DNA of 64,000 nt from Streptomyces galbus (lineage in GTDB: Bacteria; Actinomycetota; Actinomycetes; Streptomycetales; Streptomycetaceae): positions 62,001 to 126,000 of the forward strand of contig NZ_SZPR01000014.1 of NCBI RefSeq assembly GCF_005280195.1. Reading direction: 5' to 3'. The notes below the pieces were generated by a model that ran no database searches, was not told where the DNA came from, and was given only the letters and a program-made list of their open reading frames with translations. Position numbers and translations under genes: made by a program. Position 1 is the stretch's first letter, and each line of letters starts with the position of its first letter. This document shows positions 6,216 through 23,654 of this stretch, piece after piece.

Positions 6216-7169
6216 ATGCCCCACACCGAGACACCGGGCACCGAGGCGACCTCGCGGACCCGGCTGCGCTGGTGGACGGAGCTGCCGCTGATCGTGCTGG
6301 TGTACGCCTGCTACTCGGCGGGGCGGCTGCTCGCGCGCGGTGACGTGTCGTCGGCCGTGGACCACGGGCTGGCGATCCTGCGCGTCGAGAAGACGCTGCG
6401 CCTGAACGCCGAACACCCGCTCAACCGGCTGTTCACGCGCGAGGCGTGGCTCGGCGTCCCGGCGGACTTCTGGTACGCCTCGCTGCACTACCTGGTCACC
6501 CCGGTGCTGCTGGTCTGGCTGTTCCGCCGGCGCGCGGAGGTCTACTCGGCGGCTCGCACCTGGCTGATGACGTCGACGTTCATCGGTCTGATCGGCTTCA
6601 CGCTGCTGCCGACCTGCCCGCCCCGGCTGCTGTCGGCGGACCACGGCTTCGTGGACACGATGGCCCAGTACAGCTCGTACGGCTGGTGGGGCGGCGAGGC
6701 GAGCGCACCGCGCGGCCTGGGCGGCATGACCAACCAGTACGCGGCGATGCCCAGCCTGCACGTGGGCTGGGCCCTGTGGTGCGGCGTGATGCTGTGGCGC
6801 CACGGCGGGACGCGGACGGCGAAGGTGCTGGGCGTGGCCTACCCGCTGCTGACCACGGTCGTGGTGATGGGCACCGCGAACCACTACTTCCTCGACGCCG
6901 TCGCCGGCGCGGCCGCGATGGGCGTCGGGCTGCTGCTGACCCCGTTCGTGACGCGCGCTCTGGACCGGGCGCGCGGGTGGGTCGTCGCACGCGTGCCGGT
7001 GTTCTCGGCGAACTCCGAGGCAACACCCGCCACGATTGTCAGTGGAGGATGCCAGACTTCCCCGGGTGAGCGATTTCCACGGCAGCGCGAGTCACGGTTC
7101 GAACCGGGAACCGAGCCGGAGGCCTCTCCCAGCGACGCGGGGGACGGGGCTCCGGCAGCGGCTCGCTGA
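6216..7169 (+). CDS. PAP2 / inositol-phosphorylceramide-synthase-like membrane enzyme
   Basis: A 317-residue integral membrane protein with about six hydrophobic segments between residues 20 and 250. It carries the PAP2 lipid phosphatase motifs: PSLH at 179-182 and H223/D227 in ANHYFLD. The segment LPTCPPR is like the Aur1 branch, suggesting transfer of inositol phosphate or dephosphorylation of a lipid. The C-terminal 65 residues are polar and unlike the family, and they overlap the start of the downstream nuclease gene. Either this tail is real or an ancestral stop has been lost. Start ATG 6216 has a strong GGGGGAGG upstream. Confidence 0.85.
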   Translation: MPHTETPGTEATSRTRLRWWTELPLIVLVYACYSAGRLLARGDVSSAVDHGLAILRVEKTLRLNAEHPLNRLFTREAWLGVPADFWYASLHYLVTPVLLVWLFRRRAEVYSAARTWLMTSTFIGLIGFTLLPTCPPRLLSADHGFVDTMAQYSSYGWWGGEASAPRGLGGMTNQYAAMPSLHVGWALWCGVMLWRHGGTRTAKVLGVAYPLLTTVVVMGTANHYFLDAVAGAAAMGVGLLLTPFVTRALDRARGWVVARVPVFSANSEATPATIVSGGCQTSPGERFPRQRESRFEPGTEPEASPSDAGDGAPAAAR

Positions 7170-8322
7170 GCTGCGCGGTCCCGAGGTACCGGCCAAGGCG
7201 CTGGACGCCCGCGCCCTCGCGGCGCTCGCCGCGAACCCCGGGTGCCGGCGGCGTGCGATCCTCGACGGCGCCGGGGTGGACAAGGCGGTGCTGGCGGACC
7301 GGCTGGGCTCGCCCTCCGCGTTCGGCCAGTCCCAGTTCGCGCTGACCCGGGGCAACGCCTTCGAGGCCCGGGTGAAGGCCGACGGCGGGGCCGAGCTGCT
7401 GGGCCTGGTGCACCGCACCCTGGACCCGGCCGCCGAGCCGCCCGCCGGCGCGGCCACGCCCGACCTGACGGCGCCCGGCCCCGAGGGGCGCACGGCGCGC
7501 ACGGCGCTCGCGCTGCGCGAGGCCACGGAGGCGGCCGGCACCTGGACGCTGCTGGACCACCCGATGCTCGCGCTGGACGTCGCGGGCTCCCCGGCCTTCC
7601 TGGAGCCGGACGCGGTCGTGGTGCACCCCGACGGGAGCTGGACGGTCGTGGAGATCAAGTCCTTCCCGATGCTGGACGGTTCGGCGGACCCGGCGAAGGT
7701 CGGCGCGGCCGCCCGCCAGGCCGCGGTGTACGTGCTGGCGCTGGAGGAGGTCGCCGCGCGCCTGGAGGCCGCCCCGCGCGTGCGTGACCGCGTGCTGCTG
7801 GTGTGTCCCAAGGACTTCTCCAACCTGCCCACCGCGTCCGCCGTGGACATCCGCAAGCAGCGCGCGGTCACCCGCCGCCAGCTGACCCGCCTCACCCGCA
7901 TCGAGGACATCGCGGGCGCGCTGCCGGAGGGCGTGTGCTTCGCCCCGGACCTGCCCGCCGAGCGGCTGGCCGAGGCCGTCGCGTCGGTGCCGGCGACGTA
8001 CGCCCCCGAGTGCCTGGCCGCCTGCGAGCTGGCGTTCCACTGCCGTGAGCGCTCCCGCACGGCCGGCGCGGTGACCGCGCTGGGCCGCTCGGTCCGCGCG
8101 GAGCTGGGCGGCCTGACGACGGTCGAGGACGTGCTCGCCGCCGCGCGCGGCGAGGCGGGCGACCCGCGCGACCCGGCGGTCGCCGCGCTGCGCCGGGCCG
8201 CACGGCTGCGCGCCGAGGCACTGGCCGGCGCGGCGCTCCCGCCCGCCCGGGAGCCTGCGGACGGGCCCGCGGGGGCCGCCGGGACGCCGGGCACGGTGCG
8301 GGAGGCCGCGCCGTGTCGCTGA
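7066..8322 (+). CDS. RecB-family PD-(D/E)XK nuclease with predicted Fe-S cluster
   Basis: About 418 residues from GTG 7066 (TTG 7036 would add 10). Numbered from 7066, the nuclease core shows GNAFE at 96-100, D182 in EPDAVVV, E196-x-K198 in VVEIKSF and the RecB signature Q218-x3-Y222 (QAAVY). One Cys before the core (C60, NPGCRRR) and a C-x3-C-x5-C cluster after it (C316, C320, C326; ECLAACELAFHC) match the one-plus-three cysteine arrangement of the 4Fe-4S nucleases AddB, Cas4 and Dna2. The gene overlaps the next one by 10 bp and is the first of a coupled three-gene operon. Its start overlaps the PAP2 gene by about 104 bp and is uncertain. Single-strand DNA processing is inferred. Confidence 0.82.
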   Translation: MSDFHGSASHGSNREPSRRPLPATRGTGLRQRLAELRGPEVPAKALDARALAALAANPGCRRRAILDGAGVDKAVLADRLGSPSAFGQSQFALTRGNAFEARVKADGGAELLGLVHRTLDPAAEPPAGAATPDLTAPGPEGRTARTALALREATEAAGTWTLLDHPMLALDVAGSPAFLEPDAVVVHPDGSWTVVEIKSFPMLDGSADPAKVGAAARQAAVYVLALEEVAARLEAAPRVRDRVLLVCPKDFSNLPTASAVDIRKQRAVTRRQLTRLTRIEDIAGALPEGVCFAPDLPAERLAEAVASVPATYAPECLAACELAFHCRERSRTAGAVTALGRSVRAELGGLTTVEDVLAAARGEAGDPRDPAVAALRRAARLRAEALAGAALPPAREPADGPAGAAGTPGTVREAAPCR

Positions 8323-9905
8323 TCGCCACCCTGTCCCGGCTCGAGGCGGTCACCACCGGCCGGGCGCAGCCCCTCGCGACGGTCCGCCACCGGCACCTGT
8401 CCGAGCGGCCGCTGGTGTTCGTGCCGCTGACCACGGCCGGTGAGGCCGGTGCGCCGCTCGGCGCGCTGGTCGGCACCGACCGGGACGCGCCGCGCCTGCT
8501 CGTCGTCCCGCAGCCGCGCGACCGCGACCTGAGGTTCGCGTTCCTCGCCGAGCTGGCCGATGTGGTCCTGCCCTACGTCGACTCCCACGCCGACGCCGTC
8601 GAGGCCGCCGAGCGCACCGAGACCGACCCGGAGACCGGCAAGCGGGTCAAGGTCGAGGTCGAGCTGTGCGCGGACGCGCCGCAGATCGTCGTGCCGAGCC
8701 GCGCGGGCGTGGAGTTCGTGCGTCTGCTCGGCCGGTCGATGCGCTTCCGCCGGACGGCGGAGCAGGATCCGGAGGCACCGCACCCCGCGCCCCCGCGCGT
8801 GCCGTTGCTCGGCCGCTGGCTGACCCACTACGGCGAGCGGGCCCGGGTGCCCGGTTCCTCGCTGCTGCTGGCGCTCACCGAGGTGCTGGGCCGGCACTGG
8901 GCCACCGGGCAGTCCACCCTGGAGGACCAGCACCTGGGCGCGCTGCTGGCGTGGATCGACCCGCCCGCGGGCACCTCGGGCGCCGAGGCGGCGCTGCGCG
9001 CGGAGCTGGCGCGGGACGAGCAGGGGCAGTTGCTGTGCCCGCCGGCCGGCCCGGCCACCGACCCGGCGTTCGACAACAAGCTGCTGGCCCCGGCGATCGA
9101 GCGCTACGACCGGGCGCGCACCGCGCTCGCCGCCGCGGAGGACGGCCTGGAGGCCGACACCCGGCTGGGCATCCTGACCGCCGCCGAGCGGGAGGTCCGC
9201 GAGCTGGTCCTCAGCCGGACCCGGCCCACCTGGGACGCGGTCTGGCGGGGCCTGGACCTGCTGCGGGAGCTGCCCGAGGGGGCGCACGTCGAGGAGCGGT
9301 GGACGCGCGACCGCTGGTCGTTCACCGGCCACCGCGACCGGGTCCTCGCGGGCGAGCCCCCGCAGCCGCGCCGCGACGACGCGGTGACCGCGGCGAACAA
9401 ACTGGCCACGCGCGAGCGCGAACAGGCCCGCCTGGACGCGCAGGAGGCGCTCGACGACCCGCTGGTGATGGCGGGACGGCGGCTGGCCGGGGAGGCGTTC
9501 GCGGGCGAGGTCACCGAGGTCGTCATGGCGTACAGCGAGGGCAAGCGGCCCAGCCCGCGCCCGCTGGTGACGGTGCGCACGGACGACCGGCCGCACCTGG
9601 GCGAGCGCGCGAAGGTCTACCGCTCGCTGGGCGGGAAGCCGCAGTCGGCGGAGTGCGTGGGCGTCGACACCGACGACGGCCTGGTCGTGCTGCGCGTGCT
9701 CGACAAGATGGGCCGCGGCAAGGAGCCGGAGCCCGGGTCGGTGCCGGAGAAGGGCGACCGGGTGTGCTTCACGCTCTTCGAGCACGAGCAGCGCGGCGGC
9801 GCCAAGCTGCCCGACCCCGAGCAGACCCCGTGGACGCACGGCGGGCCGCCCGGGGAGCCGGTGCCCGAGGCCGCCGACCCCCTCACCCAGGAGGACGTCC
9901 TGTGA
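8313..9905 (+). CDS. Unknown protein of nuclease-helicase operon
   Basis: A 530-residue protein from GTG 8313 with no family recognised. Residues 1-130 are a mixed alpha/beta region, 150-400 is mainly helical and charged, and about 420-500 looks like a small beta-barrel (VTVRTDDRPHLGERAKVY, then GLVVLRVLDKMG, then PEKGDRVCFTLFEH). Barrels of that sort occur as domain 1B or the stalk in UPF1- and Dna2-type helicases. The gene overlaps its upstream nuclease by 10 bp and its downstream helicase by GTGA, which strongly suggests equal translation and a shared complex. It may supply the parts missing from the short helicase. This is inference; no catalytic motif is visible. Confidence 0.7.
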   Translation: MSLIATLSRLEAVTTGRAQPLATVRHRHLSERPLVFVPLTTAGEAGAPLGALVGTDRDAPRLLVVPQPRDRDLRFAFLAELADVVLPYVDSHADAVEAAERTETDPETGKRVKVEVELCADAPQIVVPSRAGVEFVRLLGRSMRFRRTAEQDPEAPHPAPPRVPLLGRWLTHYGERARVPGSSLLLALTEVLGRHWATGQSTLEDQHLGALLAWIDPPAGTSGAEAALRAELARDEQGQLLCPPAGPATDPAFDNKLLAPAIERYDRARTALAAAEDGLEADTRLGILTAAEREVRELVLSRTRPTWDAVWRGLDLLRELPEGAHVEERWTRDRWSFTGHRDRVLAGEPPQPRRDDAVTAANKLATREREQARLDAQEALDDPLVMAGRRLAGEAFAGEVTEVVMAYSEGKRPSPRPLVTVRTDDRPHLGERAKVYRSLGGKPQSAECVGVDTDDGLVVLRVLDKMGRGKEPEPGSVPEKGDRVCFTLFEHEQRGGAKLPDPEQTPWTHGGPPGEPVPEAADPLTQEDVL

Positions 9906-11242
9906 GCACCGAGGCCGACGTCGACCCCGGTACGGCCGCCGCGCGGGCCACCGCGGCGATCCTGCGCGACACGCTGCACGGTGACGCGCGCGGGGTCGTC
10001 GTCGACTCCCCGCCCGGCGCCGGCAAGTCCACGCTGGTGGTGCGCACCGCGCTGGAGCTGGCCGAGGCGGGCCGCCCGCTCATGGTGGTGGCGCAGACCA
10101 ACGCCCAGGTCGACGACCTGGTGCTGCGCCTGGCGGAGAAGTCCCCCGAGCTGCCGGTGGGCCGCCTGCACAGCAGCGACGCCGACCCCTACGACAAGGC
10201 GCTGGACGACCTGCCGAACGTGCGCAAGTCGGCGAAGGCGGGCGACCTCGCCGGGCTGCCGGTGGTGATCTCCACGGCGGCGAAGTGGGCGCACGTGAAG
10301 GTCGACGAGCCGTGGCGGCACGCGATCGTGGACGAGGCGTACCAGATGCGCTCGGACGGGCTGCTGGCCGTGGCGGGCCTGTTCGAGCGGGCGCTGTTCG
10401 TGGGCGACCCGGGGCAGCTCGACCCGTTCGCCATCGTGGGCAGCGAGCAGTGGGCGGGCCTGTCGTACGACCCGTCCGCGTCGGCGGTGACGACGCTGCT
10501 GGCCCACAACCCGGACCTGCCCCAGCACCGGCTGCCGGTGTCGTGGCGGCTCCCGGCGTCGGCGGCGCGGCTCGTGTCCGACGCGTTCTACCCGTACACG
10601 CGCTTCCGCAGCGGCACCGGCCACGGCGACCGCCACCTGTCCTTCGCCGTGCCCTCCGACGGCTCCGGCCCCGACCGGGTGATCGACGAGGCGGCCGCCT
10701 CCGGCTGGGGCCTGCTGGAGCTGCCCGCCCGGCACACCCCGCGCACGGACCCCGAGGCGGTGCGCGCGGTCGCCACCGTCGTACGGCGGCTGCTGGACCG
10801 GGGCGGGGCGGCGACGTCGGAGCGCTCGCCGGAGCCCGCGCCGCTGACCGCGGACCGGGTCGCCGTCGGCACGGCGCACCGGGACCAGGCGGCCGCGGTC
10901 CGGGCGGCGCTCGCCGAGCTGGGCGTGCGGGACGTCACGGTCGACACGGCCAACCGGCTGCAGGGCAGGGAGTTCGACGTCACGGTGGTCCTGCACCCGC
11001 TGTCCGGCCGCCCCGACGCGACGGCGTTCCACCTGGAGACCGGACGCCTGTGCGTGCTGGCCTCCCGGCACCGCCACGCGTGCATCGTGGTCTGCCGGGC
11101 GGGCGTCGGCGACCTCCTCGACGACTACCCGTCGACGGAACCGGTCCAGTTGGGCACGCTGGTGAAGTTCCCGGACGGCTGGGAGGCGAACCACGCGGTG
11201 CTCGCGCACCTGGGGGAGCACCGGGTGGCCTGGAAGCCGTGA
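9902..11242 (+). CDS. SF1 (UPF1/Dna2-like) helicase core ATPase
   Basis: A 446-residue ATPase with all SF1 motifs: Walker A SPPGAGKST (36-44), Ia VVAQTNAQVDDL (62-73), II IVDEAYQM (142-149), III VGDPGQLDPF (167-176), IV VSWRLPASAARL (213-224), V VDTANRLQGREFDV (347-360) and VI RLCVLASRHRHA (382-393). The Q-rich GDPGQLDP motif III and short RecA-like core resemble the UPF1/Dna2 (SF1B) group, but the barrel and stalk insertions are absent. Start GTG 9902 overlaps the previous stop (GTGA). It is predicted to translocate on nucleic acid for the nuclease two genes upstream. Confidence 0.88.
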   Translation: MSTEADVDPGTAAARATAAILRDTLHGDARGVVVDSPPGAGKSTLVVRTALELAEAGRPLMVVAQTNAQVDDLVLRLAEKSPELPVGRLHSSDADPYDKALDDLPNVRKSAKAGDLAGLPVVISTAAKWAHVKVDEPWRHAIVDEAYQMRSDGLLAVAGLFERALFVGDPGQLDPFAIVGSEQWAGLSYDPSASAVTTLLAHNPDLPQHRLPVSWRLPASAARLVSDAFYPYTRFRSGTGHGDRHLSFAVPSDGSGPDRVIDEAAASGWGLLELPARHTPRTDPEAVRAVATVVRRLLDRGGAATSERSPEPAPLTADRVAVGTAHRDQAAAVRAALAELGVRDVTVDTANRLQGREFDVTVVLHPLSGRPDATAFHLETGRLCVLASRHRHACIVVCRAGVGDLLDDYPSTEPVQLGTLVKFPDGWEANHAVLAHLGEHRVAWKP

Positions 11243-11900: not shown

Positions 11901-12494
11901 ATGAGCAGCGTATGGGACGAGTTCTCCGACATCTCGGGCGTCACCGCGGACGGCGCCGCCTGGCTGGCCTCGGCCGGCGCATACCCACGCAGCACGCTCG
12001 CCCTGTGGGAGGAGCAGCCGGACGCCCCGGTCGTCCTGCCCTGCGGCTCGGTCTTCGACGTCGTGAACGTCCCGGCCCTGTTCGGCCGGCGGATGCTGGA
12101 CCGGCTGTGGGACGAGGGCGCCGGCACCGGCCCGGTGGCCGTCTTCCGTGGCCGGGTCCTGCTGTTCGCCGCCCCCGGCACCGCCCAGCGCCTGCCCTCC
12201 CTGCTGGCGTGGGAGGAGTGGGGCGCACGGGACGCCCGGGACTGCCGTACGGCGGCCGTGCCGCCCCTGCTGTGCCACGGCACCGGCGACGCCGTGACCG
12301 TCCCGCCGCTCACCGCGACGGCCCCGGCCGGGGCCCGCTGGCTGGTCGCCCCGGACACGCGTCAGCCCTGGCTGCCGGGCCCGGAGGTGCTGCTCTGGGC
12401 GGCCGTACGGGCGGCCCGCTCGGCGGTGCGGATATCGATTTCGCCCTCCCCGGACCCTGATGCTAAGGTCTACGACGTCAGCAGGCGCCGCTAG
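11901..12494 (+). CDS. Primase/polymerase N-domain-like protein, ends inside tRNA
   Basis: A 197-residue protein with the pattern CGSVFDVVNVPALFGRRMLD, then VLLFAAPGTAQRLPSLLAWEEW, then APAGARWLVAPDTR. These motifs match, in order, those of the smaller protein at 3049-3498 and resemble the N-terminal region of bifunctional primase/polymerase proteins, without an evident metal-binding triad. The stop codon TAG at 12492-12494 is formed by the TA spacer and first D-stem base of tRNA-Lys, so the coding region overlaps the tRNA by 10 bp. The tRNA promoter must lie within this gene. Confidence 0.72.
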   Translation: MSSVWDEFSDISGVTADGAAWLASAGAYPRSTLALWEEQPDAPVVLPCGSVFDVVNVPALFGRRMLDRLWDEGAGTGPVAVFRGRVLLFAAPGTAQRLPSLLAWEEWGARDARDCRTAAVPPLLCHGTGDAVTVPPLTATAPAGARWLVAPDTRQPWLPGPEVLLWAAVRAARSAVRISISPSPDPDAKVYDVSRRR

Positions 12495-12558
12495 CTCAGT
12501 TGGTTAGAGCAGCTGACTCTTAATCAGCGGGTCCGGGGTTCGAGTCCCTGGCGGCGCA
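12485..12558 (+). tRNA. tRNA-Lys(CUU), copy 1
   Basis: A 74-nt cloverleaf: acceptor GCGCCGC/GCGGCGC, D-stem GCTC/GAGC, anticodon stem GCTGA/TCAGC around CTCTTAA (anticodon CTT, reads AAG), T-arm with TTCGAGT, discriminator A, no encoded CCA. It is identical to copies at 19366 and 23573. A TAAGGT hexamer at 12464-12469 is a plausible -10. Its first 10 bases overlap the upstream coding region. Confidence 0.97.
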
Positions 12559-12568
12559 CACGACGGAG

Positions 12569-19267: not shown

Positions 19268-19365
19268 CCACCCGGGACCGCAGGACACGGTGGTCACGAG
19301 CACCCCCGCGGACCAGGTAGTATTTTCTTCGTCGCCGACCGCGGGAAGCGGACGGCGAGGGTCAT

Positions 19366-19439
19366 GCGCCGCTAGCTCAGTTGGTTAGAGCAGCTGACTC
19401 TTAATCAGCGGGTCCGGGGTTCGAGTCCCTGGCGGCGCA
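19366..19439 (+). tRNA. tRNA-Lys(CUU), copy 2
   Basis: Identical over all 74 nt to the copy at 12485 (anticodon CTT, no encoded CCA). A TAGTAT hexamer about 50 bp upstream could be its -10 element. Confidence 0.97.
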
Positions 19440-19445
19440 CCCTGC

Positions 19446-23572: not shown

Positions 23573-23646
23573 GCGCCGCTAGCTCAGTTGGTTAGAGCAG
23601 CTGACTCTTAATCAGCGGGTCCGGGGTTCGAGTCCCTGGCGGCGCA
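23573..23646 (+). tRNA. tRNA-Lys(CUU), copy 3
   Basis: Identical over all 74 nt to the copies at 12485 and 19366. The preceding bases CGTCAACAG resemble CGTCAGCAG before copy 1, so the similarity extends slightly upstream. TAGAGT about 20 bp upstream is a likely -10. Confidence 0.97.
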
Positions 23647-23654
23647 CCGACACG

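Follow-up and report, generated by a model that had tools for sequence, protein, structure and literature searches.

Does the operon at positions 7066–11242 of a 64,000-nucleotide stretch of Streptomyces galbus DNA (contig NZ_SZPR01000014.1, positions 62,001 to 126,000; the window) encode a single nuclease–helicase that is divided among three proteins? An earlier note, made from the sequence of the window, proposed that an iron-sulfur (Fe-S) nuclease, a protein without a known family, and a superfamily 1 (SF1) helicase are encoded here in the manner of a Dna2 enzyme split in three. The analysis presented below suggests that the trio is probably a three-subunit nuclease–helicase of the Dna2/COG2251 type, with a putative complex, a putative Fe-S cluster, and putative activities.

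Gene 1 (7066..8322, 418 residues), gene 2 (8313..9905, 530 residues), and gene 3 (9902..11242, 446 residues) are located on the plus strand, and each starts with GTG. The three frames and the overlaps of 10 and 4 bp between them, as originally reported, were reproduced in the window sequence. The GC contents at third codon positions (GC3) are 0.957, 0.981, and 0.989 for genes 1, 2, and 3, respectively, and the ratios of nonsynonymous to synonymous substitution rates (dN/dS) against three orthologues of the same genus are 0.10–0.31; the trio therefore consists of genuine genes under purifying selection. The placement of the gene 1 start is uncertain. The upstream gene for a PAP2 phosphatase (6216–7169) overlaps gene 1, as placed, by 104 bp, and many relatives from outside Streptomyces in a 33-sequence alignment start near residue 25–30 of the window protein, so the start may lie further in.

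Gene 3 is a predicted SF1 helicase core of the Upf1/SMUBP-2/Dna2 type. Walker A is found at residues 38–44 (10013..10033) and is fully or almost fully conserved across 30 sequences; the alignment drew on 29 of the 38 extracted sequences. Together with the segments at residues 144–148, 168–173, 214–218, 347–357, and 388–391, which are taken to be the remaining named SF1 motifs, the full set that had been attributed to this short protein was located, and Pfam families AAA_11 and AAA_12 match over their cut-offs. The gene 3 profile matches SMUBP-2 with an E of 1.4e-10, beginning at SMUBP-2 residue 205, and Dna2, which ranks next among the solved relatives, with an E of 3.3e-9 at Dna2 643–807. The barrel match described below precedes, in both of these proteins, the stretch that is matched by gene 3. 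Because the chain begins almost at Walker A, already at residue 38, the usual 1B barrel and stalk ahead of the 1A core are absent from gene 3. No viral relative was confirmed for either gene 2 or gene 3; PHROGs contains one family, of unknown function, that gene 3 matches (E 8e-14), and gene 2 was not found in phage records.

The structure that gene 3 lacks is predicted at the end of gene 2. As had been stated, no family was found for this protein in Pfam, NCBIfam, PADLOC, or PHROGs, the single Pfam match being far under the cut-off, and no solved-structure relative was found by sequence. The alignment drew on 32 of the 38 extracted sequences; loci L046 and L051 were excluded from the gene 2 and tree sets for their odd frames. 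In the AlphaFold2 model, with a mean predicted local distance difference test score (pLDDT) of 61.4, two long helices at residues 251–319 (9063..9269, pLDDT 64–93 per ten residues) form a stalk candidate. A six-stranded barrel at residues 385–489 (9465..9779, pLDDT 62–84 over 391–490) forms a 1B candidate and corresponds to the possible C-terminal beta-barrel of the earlier note. The top structural match of the barrel is SMUBP-2 36–139 (Z 8.2, root-mean-square deviation (rmsd) 2.4, 84 residues), closely followed by unrelated barrels, and SMUBP-2, senataxin, Sen1, or Dna2 (461–568) accounts for 6 of the 50 matches listed. The barrel match gains weight because gene 3 matches SMUBP-2 and Dna2 only past their barrel and leaves no room for a 1B domain of its own. 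The N-terminal part of the gene 2 model is of poor quality. An RNase H-like fold, suggested there by the strand order, was not supported, the profile comparison being no better than reversed controls. The quality of the models is limited because the two fold alignments contain only close relatives (79 and 76 of 80 loci plus the window, all but one titled Streptomyces).

Gene 1 is, judging from its model and motifs, a Cas4/Dna2-type PD-(D/E)XK nuclease of the Fe-S type with a predicted cluster and predicted activity. The alignment contains 32 of the 37 extracted sequences and that of the window (33 in total), down to 39% identity to the latter; L039 and L040 were excluded for uncertain starts. 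The RecB-type motif set D182, E196-x-K198, and Q218-x3-Y222 (7609..7731, pLDDT 73–97) is present as described and is kept in 30–33 of the 33 sequences: D182 and Y222 in all, Q218 in 32, K198 in 31, and E196 in 30. The sole N-terminal cysteine, C60 (7243..7245), appears in 32, with a masked base in the remaining one, and C316, C320, and C326 (8011..8043) appear in all 33. The one-plus-three cysteines of the earlier note are thus present and conserved among orthologues, but their spacing is C-x3-C-x5-C rather than the C-x2-C-x5-C of Cas4, AddB, and Dna2. The AlphaFold2 model has a mean pLDDT of 70.5, with values of 73–97 per ten residues over 101–260. Its best match is the Cas4 part of 7mi4 (Z 11.1, rmsd 4.4, 196 residues, model 27–337), and Z scores of 9.5, 9.5, and 8.1 were obtained for EXO5, RecE, and AdnA, respectively, in support of a nuclease fold. 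Lambda exonuclease is also among the structural matches, and RecE was matched by Foldseek with an E of 4.5e-4. No solved-structure relatives were found by phmmer. Three profile matches to solved structures, two of them designed proteins, were set aside as an effect of composition.

The three pieces map along Dna2 in gene order, because the matches of genes 1, 2, and 3 fall at the nuclease (20–412), the barrel (461–568), and the SF1 core (643 onward), respectively, a fit that depends on a tied barrel match and on a nuclease match under Z 8. The trio differs from eukaryotic Dna2, a repair enzyme in humans, in consisting of three chains rather than one, in the approximately 240 additional N-terminal residues of unknown kind in gene 2, and in the cysteine spacing of x3 rather than x2. 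A comparison with AddAB had also been offered. AdnAB and AddAB likewise combine a bacterial nuclease with an SF1 motor, and the gene 1 fold matches theirs; their motors are of the UvrD type and are fused to their own nucleases. Of the two comparisons, that with AddAB is the poorer because gene 3 is Upf1-like.

A fused counterpart was identified in the COG2251/TM0106 proteins (TIGR03491), in which a single chain of approximately 1100–1300 residues comprises a nuclease, a middle part, and a helicase that is homologous to gene 3, in this order. In PMC3985635, COG2251 is described as an RNase H-like domain joined to DUF83, which resembles PD-(D/E)XK nucleases, frequently with tandem AAA domains. 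The helicase half is matched by gene 3 with an hhalign probability of 99.7 and an E of 2e-25, and the reversed control was negative. Genes 1 and 2 have no convincing match to TIGR03491 or its members and no match to any NCBIfam model at an E of 1; membership of the trio in COG2251/TIGR03491 by sequence was rejected, since gene 3 alone clearly matches its relatives. The search for fused homologues thus provided a counterpart of the whole, with a clear sequence tie for the helicase part only.

The distribution of the two forms was compared using TIGR03491 matches over the cut-off as the marker of the fused protein and gene 2 as the marker of the trio. Both occur together in 2 of 296 genomes of the class (G081 and G299), against 16 expected, and no TIGR03491 match is present in the window genome. 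Within one family, 1 of 68 genera is shared against 8.4 expected (P 3e-5), or 2 genera when a weak double match of genus g143 is counted (P 1e-4), both values being too small because genera of one family are related. This near-exclusion suggests that the trio and the fused protein may replace one another.

The co-occurrence of the three genes was determined in 61 genomes: that of the window and 36, 15, and 9 others from its genus, order, and class, respectively. Genes 1 and 3 (the latter at E <1e-100) are each present in 43 and gene 2 in 44; the complete trio is found in 42 and none of the genes in 17. Three of these 17 hold weak gene 3 matches, counted as absence, and two of these weak matches fall in the same open frame as a TIGR03491 match. 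The trio is incomplete in two genomes: G001, which is 79% complete and lacks gene 3, and G010, which is 93% complete, lacks gene 1, and has a frame-shifted gene 2. Gene 2 was detected in 48 of 296 genomes of the class, including 27 of 28 from the genus of the window; the sole exception, G284, also lacks a true gene 3. In the 61-genome sample all 37 genomes of this genus carry gene 2. No gene 2 was found outside the class in a phylum-wide sample, in which all 11 positive genomes of 296 belong to the class.

The gene neighborhood is conserved as well, with the order 1-2-3 on a single strand in 37 of 40 loci examined. With automatically chosen starts, an overlap between genes 1 and 2 is seen in 33 of 39 loci and one between genes 2 and 3 in 25 of 37. 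Adjacent genes of the trio share one open frame in none of the 37 complete loci; at L046, genes 2 and 3 lie in one open frame, with gene 2 frame-shifted. The fixed stoichiometry that had been expected from the overlaps does not follow from them, because intergenic gaps elsewhere reach +1350 bp and gene 3 is located approximately 36 and 49 kb from gene 2 in genomes G145 and G246, respectively, where it is still kept.

Copies of a second, accessory form were found in a different setting. On two Streptomyces plasmids a divergent trio is located between the genes for SbcC/SbcD and Wadjet type I genes; L215 holds JetA to JetD, and the L216 stretch ends in JetC, with SbcC and SbcD seen as fragments near the end of the record. 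On both plasmids a fourth gene for a protein of 281 residues (hyp281) directly precedes gene 1. A search of 124 stretches, including 80 close copies of the core form, located hyp281 ahead of gene 1 in 19; divergently oriented SbcCD genes lie beside 10 of these 19 (SbcD only at L033). Wadjet type II genes follow gene 3 at L034 and L038 by PADLOC and at L033 and L117 by clustering. Upstream of the trio at L041, genes for pPIWI_RE_Y, pPIWI_RE_REase, and a PDDEXK protein were detected by PADLOC and Pfam, these being partner genes only, and the same partner genes were assigned to L042 by clustering. According to PMC3702460, pPIWI-RE is an operon of three genes in bacteria whose products include a REase-fold enzyme and a DinG helicase.

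A tree was constructed from genes 2 and 3, excluding L118 and L119, where gene 3 falls outside the stretch. Eight copies linked to Wadjet and SbcCD group in a single clade with full support, separate from the clade of Streptomyces chromosomal copies; they come from Streptomyces, the two plasmids, one family of the same order, and another of the same class. The SbcCD-linked copies L133 and L134 fall elsewhere in the tree and have long branches. The clade of the window occupies its own branch and has ordinary neighbor genes. The tree and the neighbors suggest that the accessory form moves and that the core form descends. The hyp281 gene was found in 7 of the 61 genomes, and in none of the same-genus genomes with a core copy only, the window genome included. 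A further 12 genomes gave 0 of 12, an empty result that by itself shows little, though the query matched elsewhere.

Three further features of these copies were recorded. The hyp281 gene at L215:6971-7816 and in 18 further stretches belongs to accessory and other-family copies and has no Pfam family over the cut-off. The gene 1 copies at L041:6830-7990 and L042:6968-8083 retain D182 and all four cysteines despite the loss of the E/K pair. A ResIII/DEAD helicase with HA domains is located downstream of gene 3 at L134 (746 residues) and, by clustering, at L133.

Several results weigh against a three-subunit Dna2-like enzyme. The SMUBP-2 match of the barrel is in itself no proof, because unrelated barrels score within 1 Z unit of it (dihydroorotate dehydrogenase B, for example, with a Z of 7.9). 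The gene 2 model has no Foldseek match at an E of 0.001 or better, and its long helices match generic ones only (AcrA, MexA). The suggestion that gene 2 supplies the barrel and stalk is thus favored by the helix-barrel end and its top match and weakened by this tie. All four cysteines of gene 1 are located in stretches of the model with pLDDT <50, and Z scores under 8, as obtained against AddB (7.7) and Dna2 (7.3, over 20–412), may reflect a mere common arrangement. In the pPIWI-associated copies L041 and L042, gene 1 lacks E196 and K198, and in L129 both E196 and Q218 are changed; cutting is therefore perhaps not always retained. Gene 1 matches the COG2251 nuclease part weakly (P 0.0024, probability 12), and the best P for gene 2, 0.033 at its C-terminus, is uninformative because 20 comparisons yield such a value by chance. 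At the genus level across the class, the overlap of the trio with the fused protein (2 of the 12 genera with the trio, against 3.9 expected, P 0.18) is not below chance. Confidence in the favored reading was slightly reduced because of the last two values. Beside the copy in the window itself, no SbcCD, Wadjet Jet, or hyp281 matches were found.

In the proposed mechanism, gene 3 would act as the motor through its RecA-like domains 1A and 2A, and gene 2 would supply the stalk helices and the 1B barrel typical of this helicase class, while its N-terminal part may dock the nuclease. Gene 1 would then cut, as an Fe-S-type PD-(D/E)XK nuclease, the strand fed by the motor. Upf1-like helicases move 5'–3', and the same direction would be expected here. 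The likely substrate is a DNA end that arises from breakage or from SbcCD, Wadjet, or similar enzymes, and the likely outcome would be that the housekeeping copy performs resection and that the accessory copies degrade foreign DNA. From the folds and the neighbors, the most likely role of the trio is DNA-end resection or degradation.

The assignment of the trio to end processing or defense is supported for the accessory copies by the adjacent SbcCD, Wadjet, and pPIWI-RE genes, but not for the copy in the window. The Wadjet type I genes on both plasmids, the type II genes at four further loci, the pPIWI-RE partner genes at two, and the ResIII helicase at L134 and L133 could be taken to mean that every copy, including the Streptomyces chromosomal one, is a dedicated antiphage or antiplasmid system. 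Defense genes are usually patchy, and the window clade is near-universal in its genus, forms its own branch, has ordinary neighbors, and, like the same-genus genomes in which only this clade occurs, has no fourth gene. A defense system in every copy is accordingly unlikely, and a role of the core copy in repair and of the accessory copies in defense is more likely. A more far-reaching scenario, which can be offered only tentatively, is that SbcCD, hyp281, and the trio constitute a mobile resection machine, similar to Mre11-Rad50 plus Dna2, that in several defense islands destroys DNA opened by Wadjet or pPIWI-RE, and that a clade without hyp281 became established on the Streptomyces chromosome, where it serves in housekeeping resection, with the 1B barrel provided by a separate protein.

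The tie of the gene 2 barrel with unrelated folds and the distance of gene 3 from the other genes in G145 and G246 would also be consistent with three co-transcribed but separate enzymes, gene 2 being an independent DNA-binding protein and not the missing part of gene 3. This explanation is rather improbable, since the three genes are present or absent jointly, gene 3 is kept even where the operon is split, and the gene 2 model offers exactly what gene 3 lacks. Upf1, Sen1, and senataxin act on RNA, and the inclusion of RNA helicases among the solved relatives of gene 3 raises the question of an RNA-processing machine. Against this stand the matches of gene 1, mostly to DNA nucleases, the rank of Dna2 next to SMUBP-2, and the SbcCD and Wadjet neighbors of the accessory copies, which make an RNA substrate highly improbable. 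If the three-subunit Dna2/COG2251-type enzyme is correct, most Streptomyces carry an undescribed DNA-end-processing enzyme that is Dna2-like but in three pieces, so that its three functions (nuclease, coupling, and motor) could be deleted separately. The presence of SbcCD, a nuclease–helicase, and Wadjet in one neighborhood, and of pPIWI-RE elsewhere, suggests how initially cut DNA might be cleared.

Other systems share parts of this arrangement. In PMC5704561, fusions of a Cas4-like nuclease with an SF1 helicase (UvrD-Cas4) are linked to defense genes; they differ from the trio in their UvrD-type helicase, their single chain, and the lack of a gene 2. The best NCBIfam match of gene 3 is the helicase-like protein of the PLuB system, NF040671 (E 6e-16 over 28–401), a model of 1256 positions of which the last third matches gene 3; a literature search listed no paper that bears the name of this system. 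MkoA of Mokosh also resembles gene 3 (E 7e-9). The partners in Mokosh (MkoA, MkoC) are a kinase and a phospholipase-D, and the trio has neither. No published description of the trio was found by titles and abstracts, in a search that mostly excluded subscription journals and preprints. The parts are of known kinds; the separate barrel subunit in a three-way split and the association with SbcCD, Wadjet, or pPIWI-RE appear to be new.

The region around the 3' end of the operon has features of its own. Of 118 core stretches with a match, 33 contain a nearby repeat of the last approximately 74 nucleotides of gene 3 (window 11170–11242); stretches of one genome can overlap in this count. Of these repeats, 30 of 33 start at the identical base, and most are located no more than approximately 350 bp downstream. 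At L047 and L050 the end of gene 3 is changed, and approximately 1.5–4.5 kb downstream lies a gene for a large serine recombinase with Resolvase and Recombinase domains. The 3' end of gene 3 resembles a site at which integration has occurred repeatedly. Between the operon and the first of three tRNA-Lys(CTT) genes, a 197-residue protein (window 11901–12494) matches the Prim-Pol N-terminal domain with an E of 1.7e-7. The tRNA genes (window 12485–12559, 19365–19442, and 23573–23648) are located within 11 kb, are identical over their shared length, and are possibly tandem remnants of integration.

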